DNA of 64,000 nt from Aureispira sp. CCB-E. GTDB lineage: Bacteria > Bacteroidota > Bacteroidia > Chitinophagales > Saprospiraceae. Positions within the stretch are counted from its first letter, which is position 1, and each line of letters starts with the position of its first letter. The stretch is from the NCBI RefSeq assembly GCF_031326345.1, contig NZ_CP133671.1:6917501-6981500 (forward strand), written 5' to 3'. A model generated the notes under the pieces. That model saw nothing but the letters and a program-made list of their open reading frames with translations. It searched no databases and was not told the origin of the DNA. The translations under genes and the position numbers were made by a program. Positions 14,842-38,625 of this stretch are shown piece by piece.

Positions 14842-15568
14842 AAGATAAAATTTAGGAATATTGGGTTAATTTATAATTTGATTTAGTTTTTTAGTTTAAA
14901 AAACAAGCGCGATTCATAAACAACTATTTTTCAAGACATCATTATGAATCTATACTACTCTTTCTTAATAGGTTTACTTCTTTTTAAGAACGAAAAAATA
15001 TAAAATTCTATACACATTACTTCGTGGGAAAATCGCATCAGTTTGATTATCAATAGAGTATACTTTTGCTGCTTGATTTCTTAAAGGATTGATAATCAAA
15101 CTGATGCAAAGATGCTTTTTTAGTTTTTTACAAAAAAGCTAAAAAATCCACGAAGTACTAATACAAAGATAGCTAATGTAACTATTATCCATTCTTAGTA
15201 GTTGACCAATTTTTTTAGTTTTCTTAGAATTAAACATGCTTTCTCGCGAGCAAAATGAATTCAAAACTTAGAAAATATCCCATAAAAAATTCACTTGGCT
15301 ACTTTGTTTGTTTAGTCAAACAGTTATCAACTACTTGTCTTTAGCATCGTTATCAATTTTAGCAAACCAATACCACTATTTCATCGATACTCCCTAGAAT
15401 TGCATTTAATTCCCGCTTAATTAACTCCAATTCTAACTAAAAAGTTGACCTCTGCCTATATTTTTTTTATAAAAAAGACTTAGCACACTGTTATTTTGTA
15501 ACCTTTCGTTAAAGTTCCGTTAAGACAATTGCAATCAACCATTCGCAACGCTACAAATAAATACTCCT
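14842..15568. other. Gene-free divergent region holding a palindromic element
   Basis: This region lies between leftward plsC and the rightward secreted-protein gene. Its only structured content is the element at 15018-15157. No ORF of note, RNA gene or full promoter consensus is visible; CAAAGATA at 15164-15171 is a -7-like box for leftward transcription but has no -33 partner. Confidence 0.5.
15018..15157. repeat. Dispersed palindromic element, copy A (140 bp)
   Basis: The outer terminal inverted repeats TACTTCGTGG (15018-15027) and CCACGAAGTA (15148-15157) are perfect. Inside is a perfect 20-bp inverted repeat, 15035-15054 against 15088-15107, with core CAGTTTGATTATCA. Next comes GATGCTTTTTTAGTTTTTTAC, an AT-rich tract also present after the inner repeat in the other copies. 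It has no coding capacity. It has the same order of parts as copy E at 38466-38625. Confidence 0.8.
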
Positions 15569-16324
15569 ATGAAATATTTCTCCTGTCTCCTATCTATGTT
15601 ATTGTGCTTGCCACTTGCAGACGCACAAACATCAAAATTTAAAGATGTTCCTAGTATAAAAATTCGAAAACGCCGCCTGAAACCTTCCTTTTCGCAAGCA
15701 TTAGCCTTGCCTCAAACAGCTACTTCATGTGATTGCCCCACCAATTCGAATAGAAATACGCCTTTGGTCAAATTAGGATGTCAACATCCCGACACCATAG
15801 CCGTTTGTCAAGTGGTTATCACAGAGTTTGATTTAGCAATTATATCAACAAGAGGAGAAGCAATTGTTTTAAAAGATATTCAAGGTAGTTTTCTCAATAG
15901 TAGAGCATTGGGTTTTATAAGAAGTCGCTATGGCAATGGTGCATTCATCTCTTATACTAATATCAAGGGTATGACAAACGAAGGAAAAGAGGTTGTTGTA
16001 CCTTCTTTTGGAACACAAAATCCCAACCAAAGGGCTCAACGTTCTTATGATTCTATTTATAATTATACAAACGTTATTGATAAGAAAGATTCCAAAATTC
16101 ATTCTTTTGAACTAGCTGCCTATAATATCCATGGCAGAATGGTCTTTAGACAAACTTACCACAAAGACACCTTTGATAAAAATGCAATTCGCTCTGATGC
16201 CGTTCGTTATGTTTTTAAAGATATTCAAGTAGAACATTCTAGTGGATTTAAAATTGAGGTCGATAATTTCGAAGTAACAAACACCGACATTCAAGAGGAG
16301 CAATTATTGTCTAGCAATGACTAG
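15569..16324 (+). CDS. Secreted protein of unknown function
   Basis: A 251-residue protein with a signal peptide (SCLLSMLLCLPLADAQ). The mature N-terminus is basic (IKIRKRRLKPSFSQ), followed by a Cys-containing segment (SCDCPTNSNRNT, LGCQHPD). The remainder is beta-rich and hydrophilic. No lipobox, membrane helix or sorting domain is present. I do not recognise the family. It is monocistronic, with gene-free flanks of more than 500 bp on both sides. Confidence 0.6.
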   Translation: MKYFSCLLSMLLCLPLADAQTSKFKDVPSIKIRKRRLKPSFSQALALPQTATSCDCPTNSNRNTPLVKLGCQHPDTIAVCQVVITEFDLAIISTRGEAIVLKDIQGSFLNSRALGFIRSRYGNGAFISYTNIKGMTNEGKEVVVPSFGTQNPNQRAQRSYDSIYNYTNVIDKKDSKIHSFELAAYNIHGRMVFRQTYHKDTFDKNAIRSDAVRYVFKDIQVEHSSGFKIEVDNFEVTNTDIQEEQLLSSND

Positions 16325-16881
16325 AACTGCTGATTCCCTCTCTCTAATTGCATTCTCTTAACAAAACATTATTTCAAAACAAAACCCTATCAAATACACT
16401 GACCAGCAATCTATTAACTCTTCATTTTAATAATTTCTATCCTTTTGATAATTCTAAAACTGGAGTTTTATAGGGGATGGTATAGTTTTGTGCATCAATA
16501 TAAATGAAGTTGAAAAGCAGCAAAAATAGAGTAAAAAAGGCCTTTTTCTGTTGATTGAACATATATACAAATAAACAAAAACAAATAATAATAAAGTTTA
16601 TATCACTAACAATCAACTACTTAAACTTTTTAAGTACTATTAAAATTAGTTTGAATAGTAACAATATGTATAAAACTTTGTATTTTTGCCTTGTTTTTAA
16701 ACTTTATGGAGTGTTTATTTGTTTAATAGAGTTTTGCTTGTCAACTTCAAAGAAACACTTTATTAAAAAGTCAAAATGTTCTTAATAAATACAAGACAAC
16801 TGTTTTGTAGTTATTATTTCAACTAAATTGCTCCTGTTTATTTTAACAAAAGCAGCAATTTATCATCAAAACTTATTAAAA
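16325..16881. other. Gene-free region before the desaturase
   Basis: Very AT-rich. A 76-codon ORF at 16555-16785 is low-complexity and starts in AT-rich sequence, so I do not accept it. TATTTTTG at 16681-16688 resembles a -7 element, but no TTTG lies about 19 bases upstream. I see nothing else. Confidence 0.45.
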
Positions 16882-17850
16882 ATGTTGAAGTACAAAGCTG
16901 ATTTGAAGACCCTCCTCTTTATGACCATTACTACTTGTTTATTCGCATTCATGTGGGTATCGTGGAACAATCCAGATAGTATTTTATGGACAGGAGGCAC
17001 ACTAGTATTTGCAGGATTATACATCTGGCATTTATTCATGGCAGTAACTGTGTCTGTAATAGCACATAATACGATGCATGTATCTATATTTAAGTCAGAG
17101 CCCTTAAATCGTTTAATGGAATACTGGATTACTCTTTTTTATGGTACTCCTGTATTTGGTTGGATTCCAACACACAACCGCAACCATCACAAACACAATA
17201 ACAAAGAACCAGATTATACCAAAACGTACCGTTTTACAGAACGCAATGAGCTATGGGTACTTTTAATATATCCATTTGTTAGTAATTACTACCAATCAAT
17301 TGCCAATAAGGAGTTCTTGCAAGAGCGTTACCGCAAAAATCGTGGTGAATTCTGGCGCTTTATTTCTCAAATTGTTGTTCTTTTGGCTTGGGTAGGTACC
17401 TTTTTGTACTTAAACTGGGTAGCAGCTATTTTCCTAGTTATTATCCCTCATCAAGCATCTTTGTATACAGTAGTTGTCTTTAACTTTGTACAACATGTAC
17501 ATGCTGATGAAGAATCTGAGTACAATCACTCTCGCAACATTACTGCATCGCATATTTTCTCTCTAAATTGGTTCTTATTTAATAATGGTTATCATACGGT
17601 ACATCATATGAATGCCAATATGCACTGGAGTTTGGCAAAAGAAGCACACGAAAAAATAGAGCATAAAATTGATCCTAGTTTGAACGAACCTTATTTCTGG
17701 GGCTATATTTTCAAAGCTTATATTTTTGCTCCTTTCAATAAGCGTTTTAGAACCAAATCAATGCGTCTAGAAAGAAAAGAAAAAGAAGCCAACCAAGGCA
17801 AACCTAGTGTAGAAGGGATTCAAGAACCAGTAACAGCAACAACGCACTAG
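16882..17850 (+). CDS. Membrane fatty-acid desaturase
   Basis: 322 residues from the ATG at 16882; the frame extends to a TTG at 16828, but the ATG gives a normal N-terminus. Three histidine clusters of the diiron desaturase/hydroxylase family are visible: HNTMH at 62-66, HNRNHHKH from 98, and HTVHH at 238-242, placed around hydrophobic segments. The family inserts double bonds into acyl chains at the membrane with O2 and an electron donor, and some members act as hydroxylases or carotenoid ketolases. The C-terminal 30 residues are charged. A strong terminator follows 30 bases after the stop, so the gene is a single unit. Confidence 0.88.
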   Translation: MLKYKADLKTLLFMTITTCLFAFMWVSWNNPDSILWTGGTLVFAGLYIWHLFMAVTVSVIAHNTMHVSIFKSEPLNRLMEYWITLFYGTPVFGWIPTHNRNHHKHNNKEPDYTKTYRFTERNELWVLLIYPFVSNYYQSIANKEFLQERYRKNRGEFWRFISQIVVLLAWVGTFLYLNWVAAIFLVIIPHQASLYTVVVFNFVQHVHADEESEYNHSRNITASHIFSLNWFLFNNGYHTVHHMNANMHWSLAKEAHEKIEHKIDPSLNEPYFWGYIFKAYIFAPFNKRFRTKSMRLERKEKEANQGKPSVEGIQEPVTATTH

Positions 17851-17880
17851 TCATTCGTTCTCTACAAGGAGAAGCACTAA

Positions 17881-17919
17881 AAAAGACAAACTCTACTATT
17901 GGAGTTTGTCTTTTTTTTG
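17881..17919 (+). terminator. Rho-independent terminator after the desaturase
   Basis: A 12-bp stem AAAGACAAACTC (17883-17894) pairs with GAGTTTGTCTTT (17903-17914), followed by a run of T. Confidence 0.9.
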
Positions 17920-18062
17920 TTCTTTTTATTAAAAAATAAGCAAATAAGATACACAATCATTATTTTGCGTAATAAAAAATAGCAAAAACCTGTTTTATCA
18001 TCCTTTTTATACCTATCTTTATACTACAGAATAAGATTTAAGACAAAAAGCACAAATATTAT

Positions 18063-20570
18063 ATGGATCAACTGCTCCATCTTTTGGAAAATGATAACGA
18101 AGCAAGCACACAACGATTATTTGTAAGCGTAATTGTTCCTGTTGCTCTGCCAAAACTCTATACTTATAGTGTTCCACTTCATCTCAAAGATTTAGTGCAG
18201 GTGGGCTTTCGGGTAGAAGTTCAATTTGGCAAGAGCAAATTATATTCTGCTTTAATCTACAAAATCCATCAAACAGAACCTGAGAATTATATTCCCAAAC
18301 CCATTCTAAATGTATTGGATGACGAAGCTGTTGTTACAGAAAAGCAGTTCAAATTGTGGGAATGGATGAGCCAATATTATGCTACCACAATGGGGGAAGT
18401 TATGAATGCGGCGTTGCCAGCAGGCTTAAAACTAGCAAGTGAGACTAAAATTACCTTACGGCATGATTTTTCTGAAGATGACTTTGGCAACCACAACCTC
18501 AATGATAAAGAATATACCATTTTAGAGGCATTATTTAATCGGGTTGAGTTGACAATTGCCGAAACACAAGCCTTAATTAACCAAAAAACCATCTATCCTT
18601 ATATCAAAAGTTTGATGGAAAAGCGCTTGATCCATGTCAATGAAGAGTTGAAGAATAAATACAAAAGCAAAACAATAGATATGGTTTGCTTGGCAGAGCC
18701 CTACTTTAGCGACTCTACCAAACTACGAGATGCCTTTGAAATGATTGGAACTCGTGCTATTCGCCAAGCAGAAACGTTGATGGCATTTATTCAATTGAGC
18801 AAGGAGTTGGACGAAGTCCCTAAAGCGGCACTTTATGATCGAGCTAAGATAGATTCTAGTGGTCTAAAAAAATTAGTCGACAAAAACATTCTAGAAGTCT
18901 ACCAAAAAGAAATTAGTCGACTTGGAGAATACGAAGGGGAAGTTATTGGCAACTTTAAATTATCAAATGCTCAAGAACAAGCATTAACAGAAGTTAAGGA
19001 AGCTTTTGAAGAAAAAAATGTTGTCCTGCTACACGGAGTAACGGGAAGTGGTAAAACGCAAGTTTTTGTCGAATTAATGGAAGAAGTGATTGCCAAAGGG
19101 CAACAGGTGCTCTATTTACTACCTGAAATTGCGCTAACAGCCCAAATCGTACAACGCTTGCAAAAACATTTTGGCGATCAAATTATTGTTTATCATTCTA
19201 AGTTTAATAACAACGAACGCGTAGAAATTTGGCACAACTCTCTCAATGGAGTGCCTATTGTTTTAGGGGCTCGCTCTGCTTTGTTTCTTCCTTTTTCTAA
19301 TTTGGGCTTAATCATTGTTGACGAAGAACACGACCCATCTTACAAACAAAATGAACCTGCTCCAAGGTACAATGCCCGTGATACCGCTGTATTTTTATCT
19401 TATTTATACCAAGCCAAAACGCTGCTAGGAACGGCAACGCCATCCTTAGAGACCTATTATAATGTGCAACAAAAAAAATATGGCTTGGTCGAATTAAACA
19501 AACGTTTTGGGGATGCGACTTTGCCTGATATTCATATTATAGATGCAGGAGAAGAAACTAAGAAAAAGCGTATGAAATCGCATTTTACACCTCAACTCCT
19601 TCAAGCTATTGAAGAAACGTTGGCGAATGAAGAACAAGTAATTTTGTTTCAAAATCGCCGAGGTTATGCGCCTGTTTATAGTTGTAATACCTGTGGTTGG
19701 ACGGCAGACTGTGTCGATTGTGATGTTAGTTTAACTTATCATAAGTTTAGCAATGATTTACATTGCCATTATTGCAATCACCATCGAAAATTACCTAAGT
19801 CATGCCCTGCTTGTGGCAATCATGGTTTAATCATCAAAGGTTTTGGAACCGAAAAAATTGAAGATGAGCTACAAATTTACCTCCCTAATGTAAAAGTTGC
19901 TCGCATGGATTGGGACACCGTAAAAGGCAAACATGGTCATGAAAAAATTATCCATCGTTTTGCCAACAAAGAAGTAGACATCTTGGTTGGTACACAAATG
20001 GTCACCAAAGGTTTAGACTTTGATAATGTGGGGTTGGTTGGGGTACTAAGTGCCGATCAAATGTTGCACTTCCCTGATTTTAGAGCGACCGAACGAGCAT
20101 TTCAACTCCTGTTGCAAGTGAGTGGTCGTGCAGGACGAAAAAAGAAAAAGGGAAAAGTATATATTCAAGCTTATAAAATGGATCATCCCGTGTTGAAAGA
20201 AGTTAAAAGAAATAATTTTAAGGACTTTTTTGAACGAGAATTGCAAGAACGAATTGATTTTGCTTACCCTCCATTTCATCGCTTAATTAAAATTCAATTA
20301 AAACATAAAAAAGCTGATGTGGTAGACAAAGCCGCTCGCTTTTTTGCGGAGTGCTTAAAACTAAAATTAGGAGATCGAATTTTAGGTCCTGCAACGCCTG
20401 GAATTTCTAGAATTCGTACTTATTATATAAGAGATATTATTATAAAATTAGGAAAAAATTCTGAGCAGCTCAATTATACCAAACAGTTAATTGGGGATGT
20501 TCAAAATCACCTAAAAGCTCAAAAAGGCTTTTCTACCATTCGAACAATTATTGATGTAGACCCTTATTAA
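18063..20570 (+). CDS. priA: Primosomal protein N' (replication restart helicase PriA)
   Basis: An 835-residue helicase of standard PriA length. The N-terminal 3'-DNA-binding domain contains VIVPVALPKLYTYSVP and GFRVEVQFGKSKLYSAL. Walker A is GVTGSGKT near residues 325-332, Walker B is the DEEH box (IIVDEEHDPSYKQ) near 419, and the helicase C-terminal motif QVSGRAGR is present. A zinc-binding insert is seen as CNTCGWTADCVDC, then CHYC and CPACG, at about residues 540-580. PriA reloads the replisome at stalled forks. It heads a rightward run with the flavoprotein gene 15 bp downstream. Confidence 0.97.
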   Translation: MDQLLHLLENDNEASTQRLFVSVIVPVALPKLYTYSVPLHLKDLVQVGFRVEVQFGKSKLYSALIYKIHQTEPENYIPKPILNVLDDEAVVTEKQFKLWEWMSQYYATTMGEVMNAALPAGLKLASETKITLRHDFSEDDFGNHNLNDKEYTILEALFNRVELTIAETQALINQKTIYPYIKSLMEKRLIHVNEELKNKYKSKTIDMVCLAEPYFSDSTKLRDAFEMIGTRAIRQAETLMAFIQLSKELDEVPKAALYDRAKIDSSGLKKLVDKNILEVYQKEISRLGEYEGEVIGNFKLSNAQEQALTEVKEAFEEKNVVLLHGVTGSGKTQVFVELMEEVIAKGQQVLYLLPEIALTAQIVQRLQKHFGDQIIVYHSKFNNNERVEIWHNSLNGVPIVLGARSALFLPFSNLGLIIVDEEHDPSYKQNEPAPRYNARDTAVFLSYLYQAKTLLGTATPSLETYYNVQQKKYGLVELNKRFGDATLPDIHIIDAGEETKKKRMKSHFTPQLLQAIEETLANEEQVILFQNRRGYAPVYSCNTCGWTADCVDCDVSLTYHKFSNDLHCHYCNHHRKLPKSCPACGNHGLIIKGFGTEKIEDELQIYLPNVKVARMDWDTVKGKHGHEKIIHRFANKEVDILVGTQMVTKGLDFDNVGLVGVLSADQMLHFPDFRATERAFQLLLQVSGRAGRKKKKGKVYIQAYKMDHPVLKEVKRNNFKDFFERELQERIDFAYPPFHRLIKIQLKHKKADVVDKAARFFAECLKLKLGDRILGPATPGISRIRTYYIRDIIIKLGKNSEQLNYTKQLIGDVQNHLKAQKGFSTIRTIIDVDPY

Positions 20571-20585
20571 ACAAACGATTTTAGG

Positions 20586-21782
20586 ATGCAGTCAAAAAAA
20601 GTTATCATTATTGGTGGTGGTGCAGCAGGGCTAATTGCAGCAGAGCAATTAAGTGCTACTTGTGACGTGCATATTTACGAAAAGGGAAAAACCATTGGTC
20701 GTAAATTCTTGGTAGCGGGCAATGGTGGTTTTAATTTGACCAATGCTGCTATAGAGGACGACCTATATCAAAAATATACGCCTCATCCTATTTTGCAATC
20801 TGCATTGCAATCTTTTGATACTCAAAAGATGCGTGCATGGCTAGAAAAATTAGCCATAACTACTTTTATTGGTAGTAGTGGTCGGGTTTTTCCTCAAAAA
20901 GGGGTTAAACCGATTCAAGTTTTGCAAAAAATTAAAGACAAACTGTTGGATAATGGTGTCCAAATTCATTGCAAACATGAATTTATAGGTTTTAATGCGC
21001 ACCAATTACCTATTCTAAAACATCAATCTACTACCTTTTCACCACAAGCTGATGCTTATATTTTTGCTTTGGGCGGTGCATCTTGGTCGGTTACTGGTAG
21101 TAATATGAAATGGTTGCCTTTCTTTGAACAACTGGGAATTTCTACGCAGCCTTTTGAAGCTTCTAACTGCGGTCTTGAAGTTAAGTGGGATGCAGCGTTT
21201 AGGGATAAATACGCAGGAACACCACTAAAAAACATTCAAGTTTCTCTTGGCTCTACTTCCCTAAAAGGAGAAGCTTTGATTACAGATTATGGCTTAGAAG
21301 GGAACGCTATCTATCCTATTGTACCACTCATCCGTACTGCTTTTAAGTCCCTACAGCCTCCTTTTTTAGCCATTGATTTCAAACCCAATAACTCTCATCA
21401 AAATTTATTGAGTAAAACAAAAGGTAAATGCTTAAAAACTAAGAACTATGCTTATGAATTTAATTTAAACAAGGCAGAATTTGCCTTGATCAAAGCGTTT
21501 ACAACAAAAGAGGAATACTTGGCTCCTGAACGATTTATAGAAGCCATCAAACATTTGAAAATTCCAATAGAAGCTTTACGCCCCATAGAAGAAGCTATTT
21601 CTACCATAGGTGGTGTTTCTTTGAATGCACTCAATGCCAATTATTCACTTCAAAAGTATCCTCATATTTTTGTTATTGGCGAAATGTTAGATTGGGATGC
21701 TCCTACAGGTGGTTTTTTGTTGCAAGGTTGTTTTTCTACTGCAATGGCTTGTGCCCATTATTTAAAAACTAAATGCCAATAG
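20586..21782 (+). CDS. TIGR03862-type FAD-dependent flavoprotein (BaiN/HI0933 superfamily)
   Basis: A 398-residue protein. The N-terminal dinucleotide fold reads IIGGGAAGLIAAEQL, followed by the family mark GRKFLVAGNGGFNLTN. The end reads GEMLDWDAPTGGFLLQGCFSTA, which closes the FAD site. These features and the length match the TIGR03862 group of the HI0933/BaiN superfamily, whose reaction in most bacteria is unknown. It lies 15 bp after priA and overlaps the reading frame of the following lipoprotein gene, so the three are probably co-transcribed. Confidence 0.88.
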   Translation: MQSKKVIIIGGGAAGLIAAEQLSATCDVHIYEKGKTIGRKFLVAGNGGFNLTNAAIEDDLYQKYTPHPILQSALQSFDTQKMRAWLEKLAITTFIGSSGRVFPQKGVKPIQVLQKIKDKLLDNGVQIHCKHEFIGFNAHQLPILKHQSTTFSPQADAYIFALGGASWSVTGSNMKWLPFFEQLGISTQPFEASNCGLEVKWDAAFRDKYAGTPLKNIQVSLGSTSLKGEALITDYGLEGNAIYPIVPLIRTAFKSLQPPFLAIDFKPNNSHQNLLSKTKGKCLKTKNYAYEFNLNKAEFALIKAFTTKEEYLAPERFIEAIKHLKIPIEALRPIEEAISTIGGVSLNALNANYSLQKYPHIFVIGEMLDWDAPTGGFLLQGCFSTAMACAHYLKTKCQ

Positions 21783-21784
21783 TT

Positions 21785-22459: not shown

Positions 22460-22468
22460 TTCAATATT

Positions 22469-23638: not shown

Positions 23639-23665
23639 CCCCCATTCTAATTTCCCTATTAACAA

Positions 23666-26053: not shown

Positions 26054-26177
26054 AAACAGGTCTGATTGAGTACGCTGTCTGCTACATTCTATTGTTTTAA
26101 TGGTTTTTCTCTGTTTTATTTAAACGGATGCAGGGGATTAGCAGACAGGGTATTTAAATATATGTCTACAATATTAG

Positions 26178-26438
26178 TAGTTCGTTGATTATTCCCTGCG
26201 GTCATGAGGTCGCAAGCTTAGTTACCTACGGTGCTACTTCGTGGTAGCTCGCTACGCTCATGACCTTGGGCTTTTGTGCTACTAGCACAAGCCTACTCGG
26301 CAAGCTTAGTTTTTTACTTTTTCACCAAAAAGATAAAAAAGCATATTTATATTAGTTTGATAATTAAAATTTTAACACAAAATGCAGTAAATTCATAAAT
26401 CATTAATTATCAATCAAATAAAGTTCCTCAATGAACTA
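26178..26438. repeat. Dispersed palindromic element, copy B (261 bp, longest)
   Basis: The terminal repeats TAGTTCGTTGA (26178-26188) and TCAATGAACTA (26428-26438) pair with one G-T mismatch. The inner inverted repeat ATTAGTTTGATAATTAA (26351-26367) pairs with 26403-26419 with two mismatches. This copy carries extra GC-richer sequence that includes the hairpin TTGTGCTA-C-TAGCACAA (26274-26290) and the phrase GCAAGCTTAG twice, followed by the shared A/T tract before AAAAAAGCA. It runs in the same orientation as copy D. Its right terminus contains the first in-frame ATG (26431) of the next gene. It fills almost the whole 377-bp gap between genes. Confidence 0.8.
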
Positions 26439-26445
26439 TTGCAAT

Positions 26446-27597
26446 ATGGAAGAGTATGTCTACTTGAATAATGCCGCTACCAGCTTTCCTAAACCACCTT
26501 CGGTAGTTGATGCTGTTACGAAGATATTGATCCAACCACCTCTACATAATTCTAGAAATAACCTCTCGCAATCCAAACAGGCTATACAACAAAACTGTAG
26601 AAAGGCTCTTGCCACCTTATTTAATGCTCCCTCTCCCTCTGATATTGTCTTTACTTCTAGTGCGACAGAGTCCCTTAATCTTGCACTGAAAGGAAGTAAC
26701 TGGACGGGAAAACACGTATTGACAACAAGTCTTGAGCACAACTCTGTCTTGAGAGTTTTAAAGACCATGGAACGGGAACAACAAATTCGTTTGACGATTA
26801 TCAATAGTGATCGGTACGGTAGGATTACGCTCAATTCTATAGAAAAACACATACAACCAGATACCGTTGCTCTAGTCCTTAATCACTGTTCTAACGTAAT
26901 GGGGACTTTAAATGACTTAAAAACAATTGGGCGTTTCTTAAAATCAAAACACATCTCTTTTGTGGTAGATGCTGCTCAAAGTGCAGGGCTTTATCCTATT
27001 GATGTTCAAGATATGTTTATTGATATTTTAACGTTCACTGGACACAAAGCACTTTATGGAACTTCTGGCATTGGTGGCATTTATATTCGACAAAATATTG
27101 CATTAGCACCGTTGAAAGTTGGTGGTACTGGCGCTCAGAGTGATTTGCTATATCAGCCCACACACCGTCCAACTTACTACGAGGCAGGCACTAGTAATAT
27201 AGTAGGTATTGCTGCTCTTGATGCAGGCCTTCAGTTTATTCAAACAATAGGTCTTGATATTATTCGTCAAAAAATTCAGAAACAAATTCAAATTATAAAA
27301 GATTCCTTTTCCACTTATCCTCTAATTCGAATATACGCTCCTCTCGAACAACAAACAACCATTCTATCCTTTACCATAGATGGTATAGAAACAGCTGATA
27401 TTGGCTATTTGCTAGAACAAAACTATCAAATAATCGTTCGTACAGGTTTGCACTGTGCTCCTCTTGTTAATGCGCCTATCAATGCTCCTAAAGACGGAAC
27501 GGTCCGTGTTAGTCCCTCTTTCTTTACAACCAATGCCGAAATTGAATATTTTATTAAAGCAATTCAAGAAATTCTTTTAATGACAAACAACCACTAA
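26446..27597 (+). CDS. Cysteine desulfurase-like class V aminotransferase
   Basis: 383 residues from the ATG at 26446; an ATG at 26431 inside the terminal repeat of copy B would add five residues. It is a fold-type I PLP enzyme: YLNNAATSFP at the start, SSATESLNLAL, VVDAAQSAG with the pyridine-binding Asp175, and FTGHKALYG with the Schiff-base Lys201. Cys337 in RTGLHCAPL matches the catalytic Cys of group II desulfurases (SufS/CsdA, and the TIGR01977 group). The reaction would be cysteine to alanine plus enzyme persulfide. No SufE or scaffold gene is next to it. The 93-residue gene 17 bp downstream is the likely operon partner. Confidence 0.85.
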   Translation: MEEYVYLNNAATSFPKPPSVVDAVTKILIQPPLHNSRNNLSQSKQAIQQNCRKALATLFNAPSPSDIVFTSSATESLNLALKGSNWTGKHVLTTSLEHNSVLRVLKTMEREQQIRLTIINSDRYGRITLNSIEKHIQPDTVALVLNHCSNVMGTLNDLKTIGRFLKSKHISFVVDAAQSAGLYPIDVQDMFIDILTFTGHKALYGTSGIGGIYIRQNIALAPLKVGGTGAQSDLLYQPTHRPTYYEAGTSNIVGIAALDAGLQFIQTIGLDIIRQKIQKQIQIIKDSFSTYPLIRIYAPLEQQTTILSFTIDGIETADIGYLLEQNYQIIVRTGLHCAPLVNAPINAPKDGTVRVSPSFFTTNAEIEYFIKAIQEILLMTNNH

Positions 27598-30215: not shown

Positions 30216-30244
30216 ATAGCCCACTAATAAAATTAGTAGGCTAT
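30216..30244 (-). terminator. Terminator for the leftward lipase-ndpA unit
   Basis: A hairpin ATAGCCCACTAA / TTAGTAGGCTAT with one mismatch (30216-30227 against 30233-30244), 30 bases past the stop of the NdpA-like gene, followed on the reverse strand by a T-containing tail. Confidence 0.55.
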
Positions 30245-30273
30245 CATAATTATGTACTTGCCTTTCCAAAAGG

Positions 30274-31338: not shown

Positions 31339-31347
31339 TATAATAAT

Positions 31348-32631
31348 TTATTTACAATCTTTTCTTCCGTAGTAAAGATAAGGATAACTATCATCTATTT
31401 GGGGCAAATGAGCTTTTTCTTCTTCTGTTAGTTGTTCATAAGCAGCCTTTACATACCATTGAGGATTGTGATAATGCAGAATTCCCATTCCAATACAAAT
31501 TGTTCCACTCAGTTGATTTCGTCGAATCCTGCGCGCATTTTTCCTATCTTTGGTATCTATATAAGGATATCTTTTAAATCCTCCCGTTACCACGACTCTT
31601 TCTTTTGCTTTTTTGTACAATTTAAATTTTCCTAATTTTTCTTCATCGTACCAATTGCGTTGTCCAACATAATGATACTTGTACCCAGGCGCCCAAAGCA
31701 GCGTAATAGGATCTTTAAAATATTCAAATCGTTGAATTCTATTGGGTAGCAATTCATTGGCTTTTTTAATAAAAGCTTTGTTTCCTATTGTACGAGGACA
31801 AGCATACGCATACACATTTTGTACATTCAAACCATACGATTTTAAATACGTACCCGTTATCACAGAAAGTGCCCCTCCCAAACTATGCCCTGCGACCCAT
31901 ATTTTTTTATCCTTGGCATTAAACTGTGCCAACGTCGCAATTAATTCATCTCGAATCAAATCAAAACTTAGCCAAAACCCAGTGTGAATTCGTGTTCCTG
32001 CCAGAGCTCCGCCTGCTGGAGTTTGATTAATTCTCAAATCAGTTCCAAACCATTCTGCCCATTTATTCTTTCCGACATCATCTGTTCCTCGAAACAAAAT
32101 AAAAATCGTTTCAGGTGTTGAAATAACCATCAATTCAGGATCTAGCCCTGATTTATACTTAAAAATCCCCATAAACCGAGCACTCTGCGTATGAATTTTA
32201 TGAATAAACTTAAAACGAGTATGCCGATCATACCGTTTATCCAAACGCTGTGACTCTTCTAGTGCCTCTATTTCTAATGGATTATTAAAATAATGCTTAA
32301 ACCGCTCTGCATAGACCTCTTGAAAGTTCGTATCTTTGACCGCACAATGCGAACGAAACCAATCGGTTGATTGTAGTGTGTCAATCGGTTCACAACCATT
32401 GGCTAAATAACGCATTTGATAATCCAAACGCTCCAAATACATCAATTCTGTCATCTTAGCAAGAATAAAGGCATTCACATTATTGACACCACTTGCTGTA
32501 TCATTAAAATATTGAATGCATTTCTGCTCATAGGTAGGTGGATCAAATGTATAACTTTGGAGTCCTTGCCCCCATATAGTTGGCGTTAATACACATAAAT
32601 ATCCCAATAAGAGGTAAAGTTTTTTAAACAT
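31348..32631 (-). CDS. Secreted class 3 lipase
   Basis: 427 residues from the ATG at 32631, which gives a good signal peptide (LYLLLGYLCVLTPTIWGQ); the frame extends to a GTG at 32673 but that hides the signal. The lipase class 3 (PF01764) features are FILFRGTDD and IWVAGHSLGGALSV, with nucleophile Ser250 in GHSLG. Asp and His candidates lie downstream (KDPITLLW, KYHYVG). It is expected in the periplasm or outside the cell and should hydrolyse acylglycerol or phospholipid esters. The NdpA-like gene follows after nine bases; a functional link is not obvious. Confidence 0.85.
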   Translation of the reverse strand: MFKKLYLLLGYLCVLTPTIWGQGLQSYTFDPPTYEQKCIQYFNDTASGVNNVNAFILAKMTELMYLERLDYQMRYLANGCEPIDTLQSTDWFRSHCAVKDTNFQEVYAERFKHYFNNPLEIEALEESQRLDKRYDRHTRFKFIHKIHTQSARFMGIFKYKSGLDPELMVISTPETIFILFRGTDDVGKNKWAEWFGTDLRINQTPAGGALAGTRIHTGFWLSFDLIRDELIATLAQFNAKDKKIWVAGHSLGGALSVITGTYLKSYGLNVQNVYAYACPRTIGNKAFIKKANELLPNRIQRFEYFKDPITLLWAPGYKYHYVGQRNWYDEEKLGKFKLYKKAKERVVVTGGFKRYPYIDTKDRKNARRIRRNQLSGTICIGMGILHYHNPQWYVKAAYEQLTEEEKAHLPQIDDSYPYLYYGRKDCK

Positions 32632-32771
32632 TGCTTTTGTATTATGAATCATATTACTCCACATAGTAGCCACCTTATTAGTAATTTTTTGTGCTGCTAA
32701 CTATTGAGGCAAATAATTGAAAGAAAGATAAGCCTTTTTTTCTCGATGACATCTAATAGCAATTTTAGTTC

Positions 32772-33773
32772 CTAATCCTCCATTGAGAAAACAATTTTTC
32801 CAAATTGTTTTCCTTGATCCATATAATCAAATGCTTTAGCCCCTTCTTCTAATTTCCATGTGCTATCTACCACTGGAATCAATTGAGTGGTTGCAACAAA
32901 TGTTAACATTTGTTCAAACTCCTTTGTGTTTCCCATGGTAGCCCCCAAAAGAGACAATTGCTTCCAAAATACCTTTTGAGGATTCACTTTAAAACTACCT
33001 CTTGTGCCTCCATAAAATACAATCCGTCCTCCCATATTGGCTACATCCAAGAAATATTTAAATCCGTCTCCTCCTGCACTATCTACAATCACATCAAAGC
33101 CTCCTTTTGCTTTTTCTTGCAATAGTTTGTGCCAATTTTCTTCTTTGTAAGAAACGCCTCCTTTTGCTCCCAAGGCAATGGCTGCTTCAATCTTTTCCTT
33201 AGATCCAGAGGTCACATAGACTTCTGCGCCTGCCGCAATGGCAAATTGACAAGCAAACAAAGCCACTCCTCCACCTACTCCAGAGATTAGAACACGTTCT
33301 CCTTTTTGCAATTGAGCACGAGAAAACAAAGCTCTATAAGCCGTCAAGCCAGCTAAAGGCAAAGCCGCAGCTTGTTCAAAAGACAAATGACTAGGTGCTT
33401 TTCTAATTTGATCGACATCAACAGCTATATACTCTGCAAAACATCCATTGTCAGGCATTCCTAAGATACGATAATTGTTGGGTTGTACATTGGGAGCACT
33501 ATCCCAGCCAATACTTGGATTCAAAACCACGGATTGATTCAACCAAGAAGAAGAAACATCCTCTCCAACTTCAATCACTTCTCCTGCTCCATCTGAACCT
33601 AGTATAATTGGTGTGACAACACCAGGATACAACCCCTGTGTAATGTAAACATCTCGATGATTGATGGCTGCTGCTTTTATTTTTACCAGTACTTGCCCCT
33701 TTGTAGGAGTTGGTTGAGGCATTTCTTGACAAGTGATCGGTGTTTTAGGTGCTTGAAGTGTTAAAGCTTTCAT
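32772..33773 (-). CDS. Zinc-binding-dehydrogenase-type quinone oxidoreductase (MDR superfamily)
   Basis: A 333-residue medium-chain reductase. The N-terminal GroES-like part has AAINHRDVYITQG, and residues about 140-270 form the NADPH fold with LISGVGGGVALFACQ and VDSAGGDGF. The catalytic zinc ligands are not seen, as is usual for NADPH:quinone/enone reductases. The ending AFDYMDQGKQFGKIVF is typical of the family. It stands alone. The exact substrate (quinone, enone or enoyl) is not predictable. Confidence 0.88.
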   Translation of the reverse strand: MKALTLQAPKTPITCQEMPQPTPTKGQVLVKIKAAAINHRDVYITQGLYPGVVTPIILGSDGAGEVIEVGEDVSSSWLNQSVVLNPSIGWDSAPNVQPNNYRILGMPDNGCFAEYIAVDVDQIRKAPSHLSFEQAAALPLAGLTAYRALFSRAQLQKGERVLISGVGGGVALFACQFAIAAGAEVYVTSGSKEKIEAAIALGAKGGVSYKEENWHKLLQEKAKGGFDVIVDSAGGDGFKYFLDVANMGGRIVFYGGTRGSFKVNPQKVFWKQLSLLGATMGNTKEFEQMLTFVATTQLIPVVDSTWKLEEGAKAFDYMDQGKQFGKIVFSMED

Positions 33774-33883
33774 GATGATTCGTTAGTTAGAAACACAAGC
33801 AAACCATACACCTTTACAGTTGATAGTCTTTCTTTGTCGGAAAGATGTACACATAAGTGGTCAAAAACTTACAGCGATATGAT

Positions 33884-34453
33884 TTACTTTCGTTTTTCTG
33901 AGCGTAATATAATTTTGGTGTAAGGTAGCCACTTTCTAAAGATTTTTCGTTGTTCTTCTGTGAAATTATTGCCACCAATATAGATTGCATTTAACTTTTC
34001 TAACTTTGTTAAGTCCTTTGGCAACTCACTCAAGTTGTTGTTTCTAAGATCCAATACCTCCAAATTCGATAAACCTAGAATGGCCTTCGGCAAATTGGAA
34101 AATTTATTATCACTAATATTAAGTCGCTCCAAATGATTTAATTTTTTGAGTGTCGCTGGTAATTCCTCCAAATTATTACCAGCAAGATTTAAACGCTTTA
34201 GGTTGCTCAACTTATCGATGTATTCAGGCAATTCTTCCAATGTATTATTTTGAAAATTGAGTCGTTCCAATCCATCAAATAAAACAATGTCTTTAGAGAT
34301 ATGTGTCCATGAGGCACTGTTTACATTCAGTATTCTAGTATTTTTAGCCTCAGATTTTTCGGAAGGGCTTGCCTGCCAATGCCCTTCTGGCAATTGTTGC
34401 TTGGAGCAGCTTAGGGCACATAAAACAGCAGCAATAAATGTAAAATAATTCAT
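33884..34453 (-). CDS. Leucine-rich-repeat lipoprotein
   Basis: 189 residues from the ATG at 34453; the frame extends to 34534 but that adds 27 residues before a good signal peptide. The signal NYFTFIAAVLCALSC ends in a lipobox-like Cys. The mature protein has five to six LRRs of 23 residues (GLERLNFQNNTLEELPEYIDK, cut here to 21 positions 65-85 without repetition of the rest), capped by IYIGGNNFTEEQRKIF and a basic tail. It should be displayed on a membrane surface and bind another protein. It is smaller than the cytoplasmic LRR protein at 22469. Confidence 0.8.
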   Translation of the reverse strand: MNYFTFIAAVLCALSCSKQQLPEGHWQASPSEKSEAKNTRILNVNSASWTHISKDIVLFDGLERLNFQNNTLEELPEYIDKLSNLKRLNLAGNNLEELPATLKKLNHLERLNISDNKFSNLPKAILGLSNLEVLDLRNNNLSELPKDLTKLEKLNAIYIGGNNFTEEQRKIFRKWLPYTKIILRSEKRK

Positions 34454-34567
34454 AAGGGATATTTTTTGAGATTTACAAAACAGCCACTCTACACAACCAT
34501 TTTCAAGTTGGCAAATAAGCTCTTTGATCAACATTAGTGTCGTTTAATGGAATGTTAAAAGGACTTT

Positions 34568-35473
34568 TTAACTAAATACACCCGTTCTTTCTACAATAAT
34601 AGGAAACTCTTTATAAATACTAAAAGGTTTGCCTGCACGCAGGCGTTGCTTTAATGGCGCCAACAAATCTCGAATCCGTTTAGACTTAATTCTCTTATAA
34701 GATCGGTGTAGCACAATCGCAAAATGAGGTTCCATACGCACCTGTTTTCCATTAACCCAATACACCCCACGTTTCATGTACATAATTTCGCCTAGTTTAT
34801 AGGCTTTGCCTCTAAATTCTTCTGTTGATCGCCATTTTAGTAGTTTTCCAATCACCAACACATAGTCGTATTCTACATTATGATCATTGATAGCGTCTGA
34901 GTTACTCTTTTTCTTTTTGTAAGGGTAATCTGCCAATATTGTTACCGGTTGAATAACCATATAGGGCTTGCCAAGCATGTACTTATAGTCTCGTTTCAAC
35001 TGCTCTTGCAATTCACTCTTAGTATACCGCTTGATATCACGATGATCCTCTTTTGAGTTCTTGGTAATATCCAACTTAGCTTTTCTTTTTTCTTTTTTAT
35101 ATGGAAGAATGGGATCTGGCTTACTTGATAAAGCTCCTAAGATCTCTCCAAAAAGTCCTGTCCCGTCATCTTCCTCATCATCCTCTTCATCATTATCAAA
35201 AAAGGAAGCCAAATCTAAATCATCTTCGCTATTGGTCGTTTCAGGTTCGTCCTCAAAGAACGATGCTAAGTCATCCTCCTCTCCTTCATTGTCATCAAAA
35301 AAAGAGGCTAAATCATCATCCTCTTCTTCGTTTTCAAAAAAAGAAGCCAAATCATCTTCGTCTTCATCATTTGCAAACAAAGAGGCTAAATCGTCCTCGT
35401 CATTTTCATCCTCTTTAAAGAACGATGCCAAGTCATCATCTCCATCTAATATATCATCCAAATCCTTTGCCAT
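34568..35473 (-). CDS. Acidic protein with six DDLASFF repeats and a basic C-terminal domain
   Basis: A 301-residue cytoplasmic protein. Residues 1-105 are almost only Asp, Glu and a motif repeated six times, (D)DLAS(F/L)F, spaced 13-17 residues apart; one more variant is the GLFGEIL segment near 105. Residues 120-301 form a basic, mixed alpha/beta domain (KRYTKSELQEQLKRDYKYMLG, positions about 150-170; later KGVYWVNGKQVRMEP-like sequence). No known domain is recognised. Repeated short motifs in a disordered acidic tail suggest multivalent binding of one partner. The pattern loosely recalls clamp-binding or SSB-tail peptides, but that is only resemblance. No operon partner is evident. Confidence 0.7.
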   Translation of the reverse strand: MAKDLDDILDGDDDLASFFKEDENDEDDLASLFANDEDEDDLASFFENEEEDDDLASFFDDNEGEEDDLASFFEDEPETTNSEDDLDLASFFDNDEEDDEEDDGTGLFGEILGALSSKPDPILPYKKEKRKAKLDITKNSKEDHRDIKRYTKSELQEQLKRDYKYMLGKPYMVIQPVTILADYPYKKKKSNSDAINDHNVEYDYVLVIGKLLKWRSTEEFRGKAYKLGEIMYMKRGVYWVNGKQVRMEPHFAIVLHRSYKRIKSKRIRDLLAPLKQRLRAGKPFSIYKEFPIIVERTGVFS

Positions 35474-35672
35474 TGTATGTTTTTTAGCCTAGCACATTGT
35501 AAAGTAATTCTCTAAGAATAGTTACAGCGCACCAGCATATGCTGTCAAAAATAGTGAAAATAGGTTTAAAGATACCTCTAAAAATATTTACTCCTTCTTA
35601 ATCTACAATTTAGTCATAAAAACTGAAGAAAACAAGTAGATTTTATAGATTTCTACTAGCAAATCGCAACCG

Positions 35673-36623
35673 TTATTTCTTCCTCCACTTTAGCCACCAA
35701 GGCAATTTATTTATTTTCAATTGATAATAAGGGACATTTTCTGCCCCAAAGCTTTCATAAAAACGAGCAATTCCAGGAACAGAGGAGCCTTCAAAATCAA
35801 TATACTTAACACTTTCTGCTTCTCGCTTAATTGTCGCATCCAATAAATAAGCCATTGCACCCACTTCTTTACCAATAGCTGTACTGACATTTAACAAATT
35901 AATAATAGCACGTCCATCAAACATAAAAAAAATAGCCGCACACAATTCTTTATTGGTGTTGAAAGCAGCTGTAATCACTCCTTTTCCTCGGTGCAAACAA
36001 TTCCAAATAATTCGATGAGCAGTATGATACAATGCTTCTGGATGTTGTACGCCCTTTGCTTCTTGCGCTTTTTTAACCTCCGCAACAAAGGTCTCTGGTT
36101 TTAAATTACTAGTCAAATATAAACCTTCATTCAATGCCTTTTTGAGATTTCGTTTTACGTTTTTGGAATAAGCTTGGTACAAGTCATCGTATGGCTTGCT
36201 AAGATCAAGGTGATAATTCTTTTTTTGAATCGTCTCGTACTCTTTTAATTTCAAGATACTACTATTGCCATCGTTTAAGCTCAAATCCCAATACTTAAAG
36301 TCTTCTGGAATTGCTTCCAAAAACTTCTGAATGCGCTCTTTGGAACGTATATTAACCGTAAACAGACCCAATTGCTGGCACAAAAAAGGTTGGTAGAGCT
36401 GTTTTATTTTAAACAACTTATCGTTCCAGACCAAAGGAAAAACAGATTGATAATCTCCTTCTACCAAGCCCATCCAATCATTGGTTACATTATCAAGGTA
36501 CCAAGTATAGCCATAAATTTTACTATTAGCAGCGTAATGCACACAGCCATTCCATTTTGGGGCTTCTATTTCTTCCCGCTTTAGCAATCGTATTTCCATT
36601 TTTCTACTTTTCTTATTTGCCAC
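35673..36623 (-). CDS. FemAB/GNAT-like acyltransferase
   Basis: A 316-residue soluble protein with the FemAB-like layout of two GNAT folds. The first half has GYTWYLDNVTNDWMGLVEGDY and FPLVWNDK. The second has YSKNVKRNLKKALNEG and AAIFFMFDGRAIINLLNVS, and near the end YIDFEGSSVPGIARFYESFGA, the typical closing motif of such proteins. Members transfer amino acids or acyl groups to peptidoglycan, lipids or proteins, often from aminoacyl-tRNA. The substrate here is unknown. It has no close partner gene. Confidence 0.75.
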   Translation of the reverse strand: MANKKSRKMEIRLLKREEIEAPKWNGCVHYAANSKIYGYTWYLDNVTNDWMGLVEGDYQSVFPLVWNDKLFKIKQLYQPFLCQQLGLFTVNIRSKERIQKFLEAIPEDFKYWDLSLNDGNSSILKLKEYETIQKKNYHLDLSKPYDDLYQAYSKNVKRNLKKALNEGLYLTSNLKPETFVAEVKKAQEAKGVQHPEALYHTAHRIIWNCLHRGKGVITAAFNTNKELCAAIFFMFDGRAIINLLNVSTAIGKEVGAMAYLLDATIKREAESVKYIDFEGSSVPGIARFYESFGAENVPYYQLKINKLPWWLKWRKK

Positions 36624-36726
36624 TTAAAACAATACCAAAATCATTAGGTTCATCTTTTTATCAATGCTTTTTGCAAAAATAGAAAGTCCTTCTGCTTATC
36701 TAGAAAAGATAGCTAATAAATTTTAA

Positions 36727-36850
36727 TACTCTGTTGATTATTCCATGAGCAACTCCTTTGTCCTACTAGCACAGGCTTACTCGGCTGTCACTTAGTTACC
36801 TTTTTCAAGATTTAAAAGAATATGCATCCTTAAGGACAATCAACCCTTTA
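36727..36850. repeat. Degenerate copy C of the dispersed element
   Basis: It starts with TACTCTGTTGATTATTCC, as copy B does (TAGTTCGTTGATTATTCC), and shares CTACTAGCACAGGCTTACTCGGC with small changes relative to 26278-26300. The inner inverted repeat is lost. TCAACCCTTTA at about 36840-36850 may be a decayed right terminus. It lies in the 351-bp gap upstream of the 36975 gene, which otherwise shows no promoter or RNA gene. TATTTTTG on the reverse strand (36674-36681) is a -7-like box for the GNAT gene. Confidence 0.55.
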
Positions 36851-36974
36851 TAAACAATTTATCTTTTTACTTGTTTATACTAATACAAGCACGTCACAAA
36901 TTCCAAAAACTTTAAAACTCTCACGTCCCCTTTTTCGTGTTTGGCTATATTTTTAACAAAAAATACATAAAATT

Positions 36975-37469
36975 ATGAATAACGATATAACCGTCAAAGA
37001 AAAGTCAACAATAAACATTTCAAAAACAGCCATGTATACAGGTCTTTTTGGAGCAGTTACCATGATTGGCTTTTTGATTATAGTTGAACTATTTAACCCA
37101 GTAAATACAATTGCTTTTAAGTTTTTGAAATACTTTATTTTAGCATTTCCATTAGCTATTGGGCTATCCAAACTAAAAAATCACGTCACAAATAAATATA
37201 GATTCTTCCAAAAAGGAATTCTTTTTTCAGCTATAGCTTCCATTACAGCTGCTGTTGTCATGTTAATTGCCTATTTTATTACACAACCAATTAGCGGATT
37301 TAGTTTGGCAACTATTACAACAAATATGACAACAATCAGTAGCCAAACAGGGATTACTTATATTCCACTAGTAGCTGCTTCTATGTTGTTTTTAGAGGTG
37401 TTTGTAATGAGCATGATTACGAGTTTTGGAGTCTTAGTCTATCAAAAAGACTTTGCTAGAACAGCCTAA
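36975..37469 (+). CDS. DUF4199-like small membrane protein
   Basis: A 164-residue protein with four predicted transmembrane helices (about residues 22-42, 50-66, 81-104 and 125-155), with a Lys-rich loop after the second helix (KLKNHVTNKYRFFQKG). The arrangement matches DUF4199-type proteins common in Bacteroidota; function is unknown. It is a single gene with a strong terminator 45 bp after its stop. Confidence 0.6.
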   Translation: MNNDITVKEKSTINISKTAMYTGLFGAVTMIGFLIIVELFNPVNTIAFKFLKYFILAFPLAIGLSKLKNHVTNKYRFFQKGILFSAIASITAAVVMLIAYFITQPISGFSLATITTNMTTISSQTGITYIPLVAASMLFLEVFVMSMITSFGVLVYQKDFARTA

Positions 37470-37510
37470 TACGATACAATTACATAGACAAAAAAGTATC
37501 ATAAAATAAA

Positions 37511-37551
37511 AAAGATGAGTCATCCTCTACACTAGGATGACTCATTTTTTT
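37511..37551 (+). terminator. Rho-independent terminator
   Basis: Stem ATGAGTCATCCT (37515-37526) pairs with AGGATGACTCAT (37534-37545), and a T-run follows directly. It ends the 36975 gene. Confidence 0.9.
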
Positions 37552-37608
37552 AGACTGCTATACTAGTCTTGTTATACCTACTATTTAAAAGTTCTCTATT
37601 AAAATAGT

Positions 37609-37780
37609 AGTTCGTTGATTAGTTCGCTACGCTCATGAGGGCGCAAGCTTAGTTTTTTACTTTTTTACCAAAAAGATAAAAAAGCACATTTATATTAGTT
37701 TGATAATCAAATTCTTAACATGAAACACAGTAAAATTATAACTTGTTAATTATCAAGCTAATAAAGTTTTTCAACGAACT
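37609..37780. repeat. Dispersed palindromic element, copy D (172 bp)
   Basis: The terminal repeats AGTTCGTTGA (37609-37618) and TCAACGAACT (37771-37780) are perfect. The inner repeat ATTAGTTTGATAAT (37694-37707) pairs with ATTATCAAGCTAAT (37749-37762) with one mismatch. GCGCAAGCTTAG and the A/T tract up to AAAAAAGCA are shared with copy B. It ends 12 bases beyond the stop of the Cys-rich lipoprotein gene at 37792 and is inverted relative to copy E on the other side of that gene. Confidence 0.82.
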
Positions 37781-37791
37781 GTTGTTAAAAG

Positions 37792-38388
37792 TTACCAACA
37801 CATATTCCAGTACTTTCTGTTTTCTTCTACATAAGAACCATCCAATATAGTCCAACAACTTCTCCATCTAGCCTTCCACTCACAACAAGCGCAACAAGCT
37901 AAGTTTAAGCAATCAGAGCCTGATCCCATCCAAGTGTAGTAATGCCACCAAGTAGTACAAATTCTACCTTTAAACATTTGATCCAAAGACGTCAAAGATG
38001 GCGTAAAAATGGTTAATTCACTCATTTCTCTTTTAGACAAATTATCTCCCAATTCTAGCTCTAGAAACGTTTGTCCTTCCTTTAAATCTTGATAGATTCC
38101 TTCATACTTTCCAATTTCTTTTAGATACAAAGCTACCTTAAGGTTTTCTTTCAATTCCGCTACCTCCTCAATGCTTAGTTTTTCTATAATAGTTGCTTGT
38201 TCTGCTTCTGATTTTTCGCCAAAGCCCTTAGGCATCAAATAACGATTAGTAACAGGGTCAGCAGAGGCAGCCTCTGTTACAACTTGAGGATCTGTAGGGA
38301 TGTCTTTTTCACAAGAAATAGTAAAAAAAGATACTATAACAATTATAAATAGATTCATGCACCAAAAATTAATGCTCAGTGATTTCAT
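37792..38388 (-). CDS. Lipoprotein with Cys-rich aromatic C-terminus (pair member 1)
   Basis: 198 residues from the ATG at 38388 (the frame extends to 38427). The leader MKSLSINFWCMNLFIIVIV leads to the lipobox-like TISC, then EKDIP. The middle (about residues 40-135) is charged and helical. The last 60 residues contain eight Cys and many Trp, for example CTTWWHYYTW, CLNLACCACCEWK and the ending MCW. The leader nearly matches that of the protein at 38654, though the middles differ. Even Cys number suggests disulfides outside the cytoplasm. The gene lies between inverted elements D and E. The function is unknown; a bacteriocin-like or surface role is possible. Confidence 0.65.
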   Translation of the reverse strand: MKSLSINFWCMNLFIIVIVSFFTISCEKDIPTDPQVVTEAASADPVTNRYLMPKGFGEKSEAEQATIIEKLSIEEVAELKENLKVALYLKEIGKYEGIYQDLKEGQTFLELELGDNLSKREMSELTIFTPSLTSLDQMFKGRICTTWWHYYTWMGSGSDCLNLACCACCEWKARWRSCWTILDGSYVEENRKYWNMCW

Positions 38389-38465
38389 ACTTAAAAGTTT
38401 TAAAAGAGTTAAAATATAAAAAAACAATGCAAGTTTAGATTTACCTATCTGTTCCAGTCATACAT

Positions 38466-38625
38466 TACTCCGTTGAAAAATCGTATTAGTTTGATTACCA
38501 GCAAGATGCACTTTCATCAACCTTTGCACTAAAAGACTGATAATCAAACTAATGCAAGATGCTTTTTTACGTTTTTACTTCGTGAGCCTACGGGTTCGTA
38601 GGAAAACTAAAAAATCAACGGAGTA
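38466..38625. repeat. Dispersed palindromic element, copy E (160 bp)
   Basis: The terminal repeats TACTCCGTTGA (38466-38476) and TCAACGGAGTA (38615-38625) are perfect over 11 bp. The inner repeat ATTAGTTTGATTACCAG (38485-38501) pairs with CTGATAATCAAACTAAT (38537-38553) with one mismatch. The tract GCAAGATGCTTTTTTAC follows as in copy A. A small insertion holds CCTACGGGTTCGTAGG, itself an inverted repeat. It sits between the two Cys-rich lipoprotein genes. Confidence 0.82.

Follow-up and report, generated by a model that had tools for sequence, protein, structure and literature searches.

The 64-kb stretch of Aureispira sp. CCB-E analysed here (the window; G000:C1:6917501-6981500, where G000 is the 7.39-Mb genome in two contigs) carries four palindromic copies that are members of a small non-coding transposon family of Aureispira, with ends of the form CAWTASTYCGTTGA...TCAACGRASTAYTA. 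By the features tested, namely its ends, the duplications of 6 bp or more that flank it, its copy number and the clean empty sites of a closely related strain, the 146-bp element of this family is a miniature inverted-repeat transposable element (MITE), and the family has very probably been active recently. We consider it likely that it is a non-autonomous MITE family, known so far in Aureispira, which carries a set of exchangeable GC-rich modules.

A first-pass annotation of the window had described the four palindromic copies as sharing one order of parts, and all four are present in that form; their locations stand, but their exact limits do not, because the true ends lie a few bases further out. 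Copy A (15015-15160, plus strand, 146 bp) is the bare base form, with the ACTTCGTGG end subtype and a 5-bp duplication, ATACA, read by eye. Copy B (26175-26441, minus strand, 267 bp) consists of the 146-bp base and 121 nt of modules, is flanked by the 6-bp duplication CAATAT, and overlaps the first 11 bases of a predicted open reading frame (ORF) at 26431-27597. Copy D (37605-37784, minus strand, 180 bp; locus L031) is the base plus the 34-nt module V, with the 6-bp duplication TTAAAA, and copy E (38463-38628, plus strand, 166 bp; locus L001) is the base plus the 20-nt module III, with the 6-bp duplication GTCATA. The variable GC-richer hairpin part that had been ascribed to the copies does exist, but its composition of separate exchangeable modules had been missed: it is module III in copy E, module V in copy D and several modules in copy B, and it is absent from the bare copy A. 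Shuffled sequence would give 0.68 occurrences of the terminal motif in the window, where eight are found; for TTAGTTTGATNATCA, allowing up to two mismatches, there are eight against 1.84.

BLAST searches of the genome with copies E and D, in which 40 of 307 and 40 of 404 first-look candidates, respectively, were scored, returned a long series of copies. These fall into two main subfamilies, the ACTCCGTTGA and AGTTCGTTGA types, with a common 146-bp base form. Terminal inverted repeats, tested as a trait of MITEs, are present as 14-bp ends, and the 14-base end pattern YADTASTYCGTTGA has 426 exact matches in G000 (218 forward, 208 reverse), compared with eight (four in each direction) for its reversed control. 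Rather than the few copies that would have spoken against the first-pass annotation, an estimated ~177 intact copies are present per genome, extrapolated from a 2,464,000-base sample (33.3% of the genome) in which 59 copies retain both ends between perfect duplications of 6 bp or more; this is a lower bound, as copies with broken ends are missed. Duplication-bearing copies span 32-379 bp, short and without a transposase gene, and their sizes cluster at 146, 166/168, 180 and 202 bp in a set chosen partly by likeness; the first 60 loci were selected for their resemblance to E and D, so the 166 and 180 classes are inflated there. In the 59-copy sample the classes were 146 bp (13 copies), 180 (5), 145 (4), 166 (4), 168 (3), 53 (3) and others.

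The family has a narrow distribution. Among 40 genomes, the end pattern was matched 426 times in G000 and 234, 94 and 114 times in three genomes of the same genus (G001, G003 and G006), and from 0 to 5 times in each of the other 36. A 25-base left-end pattern found at least 120 stretches in public genomes; among the matches listed, 119 of 120 bear the name Aureispira in their titles (they come from strain CCB-QB1 and two metagenome bins), and the remaining one, L208 (CACVAR010000311.1), lies on a 3.4-kb contig binned as Sulfurovum. That contig is probably misbinned, as it belongs to the same metagenome series as one Aureispira bin and bears a similar coverage in its name; otherwise it holds the only copy outside Aureispira among the matches listed. 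A search of viral contigs for the element gave no match.

Target-site duplications were counted in 58 of the first 60 loci (L018 and L038, which have no two recognisable ends, were left out). Of these 58 two-ended copies, 50 have a perfect duplication of 6 bp or more (45 of 6 bp and five of 7 bp); five more had a 5-bp duplication and three had none. The size listing, the base-size set, the genome-sample count and the orthologue comparison admitted a copy only if its duplication reached 6 bp, and their duplication tallies are therefore selected. The duplicated bases are AT-rich and show no strong motif (57 copies). We then have the comparison with strain CCB-QB1, the source of all public loci at orthologous sites, whose flanks differ from those of G000 at 95 of 22,076 aligned bases (28 pairs) and are thus ~99.6% identical. 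Across 29 orthologous sites with flanks at least 97% identical, the element had the same length within two bases at 17, differed in length at eight and was missing from one strain at four, and at each of these four empty sites exactly one copy of the 6-bp sequence remains; a fifth empty site, outside the 29, has one flank at 95% identity. Three empty-site junctions read base by base were clean. Clean empty sites that retain a single 6-bp copy show that the element has been inserted or exactly removed since the strains split. The suggestion in the first-pass annotation that the copies were MITEs moved in trans is therefore borne out by the duplications, the empty sites and the ~177 copies, but the moving enzyme itself was not found. 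The duplication would point to a cut-and-join (DDE-type) chemistry. Two short copies, L081 6905-6957 (53 bp) and L009 1736-1826 (91 bp), consist of almost nothing but the two ends and modules; they nevertheless retain 7-bp duplications, and the base interior therefore seems dispensable for movement.

The base element can also be folded. An alignment of 73 of the 76 base-size copies (152 columns; L065, L274 and L281 were left out and the mosaic L132 was kept) gave a predicted consensus fold of a terminal stem, an inner stem and a short third stem, in which 98.9% of 2,262 stem cells are paired (99.7% in the terminal stem) and double changes occur in 10 pairs, comprising 142 cells. None of 500 shuffles reached the three pairing values (paired share, double-change pairs and cells), and slid controls were at most 52.7% paired; the count of further pair types was reached by two of the 500. 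The compensated terminal arms first noted in the window copies are thus real, and an excess of covariation persists when 73 copies are aligned, but the independent paired-change events are few, far fewer than the cells: the division between the ACTCCGTTGA and AGTTCGTTGA subfamilies accounts for the large double-change counts at columns 6/147, 8/145 and 34/83, so that much of the signal is this one split. Further paired changes, at columns 24-28 with 90-94, occur in the G003 copies L061 and L069 and in a few others.

Covarying stems, with a T-tract beside the hairpin, are also what would be expected of a conserved structured RNA or transcription terminator that had been spread secondarily by transposition and whose pairing was kept for its function as RNA. 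We regard this as improbable, because the element belongs to no Rfam family (the window has no Rfam match except two tRNAs, which leaves the structured RNA of the first-pass annotation without a counterpart there), because modules interrupt the stems, and because the element positions resemble the gene-orientation background. Among the 51 of 59 sampled elements that could be classed, 30 lay in tandem, 11 in divergent and eight in convergent gaps and two in an ORF, compared with 520 tandem, 191 divergent and 78 convergent background gaps; a preference for gene 3' ends was accordingly rejected, none being seen against this background.

Compared with the 146-bp bases, the longer elements carry insertions of 20, 22, 34 and 36 nt at a few sites. 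The two subfamilies largely share these sites, and those on one arm of the inner stem mirror those on the other. The inserted modules were followed with the patterns ACCACGNAGTAGCAGCGNAGCTAA (module I), AACTGCGNAGCACTCACGNAGTAA (II) and AACCCGNAGGCTCACGAAGTAA (III) and with longer patterns for IV, V and VI, of which VI overlaps II. The G000 sample contained 140 matches to module I, 63 to II, 16 to III, 10 to IV and 38 to V, and none to any of the reversed patterns. Exact matches to module I numbered 234 in the whole of G000 (none for the reversed control), 96 in G001, 44 in G003 and 66 in G006; there were none in the 36 other relatives or in 394 other genomes drawn from the phylum. ORF-masked DNA made up 84% of a first sample and held one of its 79 module I copies. 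Module I, a 24-nt unit with GTAG in its interior and with the borders ACC... and ...TAA, occurs in several contexts: 46 of the 140 copies follow an element end, 27 lie inside an element end, 33 follow another module and 34 have other left neighbours. Nine of these 34, by a hand count from the listing, lie in a second dispersed family with ends like TAAGTAATCGTTCA, and modules also nest inside modules. The second family was seen at L077, L095, L265, L275, L317, L325, L347, L361, L368 and L322 6279-6340; some of its copies are ~60 bp long, and nine carry module I.

The two near-identical strains show that module content changes at fixed sites. At seven of the 29 orthologous sites the length difference has the size of a module (33, 22, 20, 22, 20, 36 and 24 nt), and at the eighth site of differing length it is 139 bp. 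In two comparisons, L006 with L181 and L015 with L184, a module is the sole difference. Given this presence or absence at the same site, together with the several contexts, there is little doubt that the modules are discrete units. The inserted units mostly have AA on either side; in A-rich targets, such borders are only a weak sign of a 2-bp duplication.

Whether the modules move by themselves is a matter on which we find the case evenly balanced. Under the competing account, to which we give only slightly less credence, the element is an ordinary MITE whose internal segments are shuffled by ectopic gene conversion, and nothing smaller moves alone. Independent module movement is weakened by several results that gene conversion would lead one to expect: substitutions between the two strains are about fourfold more frequent in the elements (77 of 4402 bases) than in their flanks (95 of 22,076), at L037 and L047 the module difference is accompanied by linked changes in neighbouring bases, and 73 of the 140 module I copies lie inside or beside element ends. 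The 34 copies with other left neighbours, including the nine (hand count) in the TAAGTAATCGTTCA-ended family, are less easily explained by conversion between elements, as are the modules nested in modules and the two sites, L006 and L015, that differ by a module alone, although a short converted tract could look alike. Transition-only variation in the element loop was considered and dismissed as nothing special, the ratio of transitions to transversions being 59:18 in the elements and 73:22 in the flanks.

On paper, the modules resolve into one or two very small GNA-loop hairpins; module III of copy E (38575-38596), for example, contains CC-GTA-GG and AC-GAA-GT as putative mini-hairpins. DNA mini-hairpins with at least two G-C pairs are described as exceptionally stable when their loop is GNA or GNNA (PMC4686876). 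We examined the variability of the module positions in a pooled set, which mixes strains and counts orthologues twice, and repeated the analysis on a single genome. In the pooled set the most variable position is a GNA centre in modules I (position 7, n=238), II (position 8, n=115, with position 12 at the same rounded entropy), III (position 7, n=44) and V (position 26, n=69), and the second GNA centres rank 2 in I, 4 in II and 2 in III. In the single genome the first centres rank 1 in I, III and VI, 2 in II and 3 in V, the last with the same rounded entropy as ranks 1 and 2. Certain stem pairs also change together more often than would be expected if positions were independent (the copies share ancestry, so the counts themselves are not independent): pooled double changes numbered 22 against 6.1 expected at I 15/21, five against 0.6 at II 5/11, 27 against 10.5 at II 17/21 and 13 against 3.0 at V 23/29, and the corresponding single-genome values were 15 against 5.2, three against 0.4, 11 against 3.7 and six against 1.5.

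Several results tell against a hairpin signature of this kind. The loop signal is weaker in the single genome than in the pooled set, with the module IV centre at rank 16 (n=10, little variation) and the second centres at ranks 2, 5, 3 and 3 in I, II, III and VI. The pair I 4/10 has seven pooled double changes against 0.4 expected but none in the 140 single-genome copies (0.0 expected); in the pooled set, broken pairs outnumber co-changes at I 5/9, 14/22 and 16/20, and at II 4/12 there are six paired double changes against 20.0 expected, with 43 of 115 copies broken. Isolated modules fold no better than their shuffles (eight sequences, z from -0.92 to 0.59), and standard DNA folding of the modules yields other structures. 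In the nine bases before CTCAYG, 16 stems were found against 10.4 expected and seven GNA loops against 3.8, near chance (21 against 22.5 and five against 5.6 for a control anchor), and across the genome intergenic DNA has no more than a modest excess of GNA-type loops.

The same conservation, with free centre bases, could instead mark protein binding sites with an unspecified spacer, in which no hairpin need form. A fixed sequence with two free positions, the weak predicted folding of the modules and the several stem pairs that do not co-change are all in keeping with such sites, but the paired flips in the stems of I, II and V exceed independence and are unexpected for a fixed-sequence site, even if the copies share ancestry; on balance we think protein sites unlikely, but worth bearing in mind. 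It seems similarly doubtful that what is transmitted is neither a gene nor a fixed sequence but a DNA structure, in the form of 18-36-nt strings of GNA-loop mini-hairpins. The structure-driven view in full, in which such units would jump into A-rich sites, into each other and into two unrelated MITE-like families through single-stranded folding during replication, with the bases that the hairpin does not need left free to change, we likewise hold to be rather unlikely.

Non-autonomous movement calls for a transposase. No transposase with matching termini, of the kind envisaged in the first-pass annotation, was found when PF01609, PF13701, PF12762, PF00665 and PF01797 were searched in eight Aureispira-genus genomes and ends were compared for the transposase kinds found in G000. 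In 2.46 Mb of loci, a search for two ends separated by 420-8000 bp and flanked by a perfect duplication of 6 bp or more came up empty, and no convincing longer unit was seen in one third of the genome. The 42 PF01609 matches in G000 include six multi-copy kinds, whose ends, judged from a few copies each, differ from those of the element, and a single-copy 269-aa kind that was scanned for end-like motifs only. PF13701 gave weak matches below the cut-off, of the same 427-aa kind, PF12762 gave no matches, and the four PF00665 matches in G000 have no matching ends. Among the eight genus genomes, PF00665 transposases occur only in G000, G003 and G006, three of the four element carriers. Multi-copy units found de novo in one third of the genome also have ends unlike the element.

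Several individual candidates for an autonomous partner were set aside. The interval G003:C1:3728433-3729798 (ends 1366 bp apart; locus L061 1434-2944) was rejected, as it holds an SbcD-like nuclease gene (PF12320) between two independent element copies with no shared duplication. Relaxed long end pairs gave three candidates with a dominating ORF, of which the first is trpA and the other two were judged by their leading residues only. At L249 13626-14537 (G000:C1 about 289,600-290,500) two inverted element ends enclose a gene for tryptophan synthase alpha (PF00290); the ends are interrupted by module I-type sequence and have TTTTTA on both outer sides. This pair may be two separate insertions, since both ends are of the left type. 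A 529-bp end pair at L311, with a 7-bp duplication bearing one mismatch, was read as sequence only.

The same searches bear on a further possibility raised at the outset, that the copies resemble repetitive extragenic palindromic (REP) elements or REPINs, mobilised by a REP-associated tyrosine transposase (RAYT, a Y1 transposase) through single-stranded hairpins. The units are indeed short, palindromic and intergenic, present in several hundred copies, and GTAG occurs inside module I. However, there were no Y1 transposase matches in G000, G001 (92% complete) or G003, movement of REP type does not explain the 6-bp duplications of the large element, and GTAG is internal to the 24-nt unit, with neither a GTAG nor a CGTC tag at the end of module I. 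IS200/IS605-type palindromic elements are not known to make a target duplication, unlike the Aureispira element with its duplications of at least 6 bp. We therefore consider a REP-like origin very improbable.

Returning to a MITE with exchangeable modules, we envisage that the 14-bp ends would be recognised by a transposase supplied in trans, which would excise or copy the element and place it in AT-rich DNA between genes, duplicating 6 bp (sometimes 7 bp) of the target. When written out, the interior forms two additional stems with coordinated changes at the paired positions. GC-rich modules of 20-36 nt have been gained, and are exchanged, at a small number of fixed A-rich sites; their hairpin form might be maintained, and gain and loss could proceed through single-stranded DNA (hairpin-promoted slippage or template switching) or by short-tract gene conversion between copies.

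A close parallel to the modules may be the cyanobacterial small dispersed repeats (SDRs), which Elhai et al. reportedly described in 2008 as units of ~20 nt inside larger repeats and in intergenic DNA. The modules, likened here to SDRs by description rather than by sequence, are likewise ~20 nt long, lie within other repeats and are present or absent at orthologous places (seven of 29), but they belong to a different phylum and add strain-to-strain presence or absence and a possible GNA-loop signature. As for the carrier, known bacterial MITEs include RUP, NEMIS, ERIC, Nezha and others (PMC3733652); the Aureispira element resembles them, as that source describes them, in a size of 70-300 bp, terminal inverted repeats, lack of coding room, intergenic position, hairpin folds and high copy number. 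It differs from that description in having a second layer of exchangeable short modules, in the compensated ends that set its subfamilies apart, and in the lack of an autonomous partner among the five Pfam families searched in eight genomes. The GC clusters of yeast mitochondria (GC42) have flanking AG or ACT repeats, changes concentrated in loops, and merging and shuffling, as reported (PMC4478555). On that account, the modules are similarly short, GC-rich units in AT-rich DNA with short flanking repeats (mostly AA here), but they lie in a bacterial chromosome, are carried by a MITE and give a partial loop signal.

A literature search on Aureispira repeats showed no paper among the matches listed, by title and the start of the abstract, and searches for a MITE serving as the platform for a second, far smaller exchangeable layer found no paper on such an arrangement, with most subscription papers outside their reach; to our knowledge it is new for bacteria. 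How 20-nt sequences insert and leave is a question common to bacterial SDRs and mitochondrial GC clusters, and two strains with ~99.6% identical flanks and different module content provide a natural experiment on such insertion and loss. With the GNA loop rule, already known from the chemistry of DNA, an ordinary plasmid would suffice to test the process.

Within the window, the modules can be placed exactly. Module V in copy D (37619-37654) and module III in copy E (at the coordinates given above) are exact matches to their patterns, both on the minus strand. Copy B contains, also on the minus strand, a module V-like unit with seven mismatches to the pattern (26188-26223) and module I at 26222-26245, as the variant CACCGTAGGT with a paired change in the second putative hairpin. 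The fragments previously listed at 7396, 10484 and 36727 each hold an element end. The first also has two 24-nt modules on the plus strand, one copy of module I directly 3' of the terminal repeat (7408-7431) and a second at 7445-7468; the second is a solo end, ACTCCGTTGG (10496-10505, minus strand); and the third is degenerate (36719-36785, plus strand), with the end CTCTGTTGA and pieces common to copy B. Elsewhere in the window lie two identical tandem tRNA genes (10179-10253 and 10315-10389; 136 bp from start to start) and, at 35175-35446, imperfect direct repeats inside a minus-strand ORF (34568-35473), with successive starts 39-99 nt apart.

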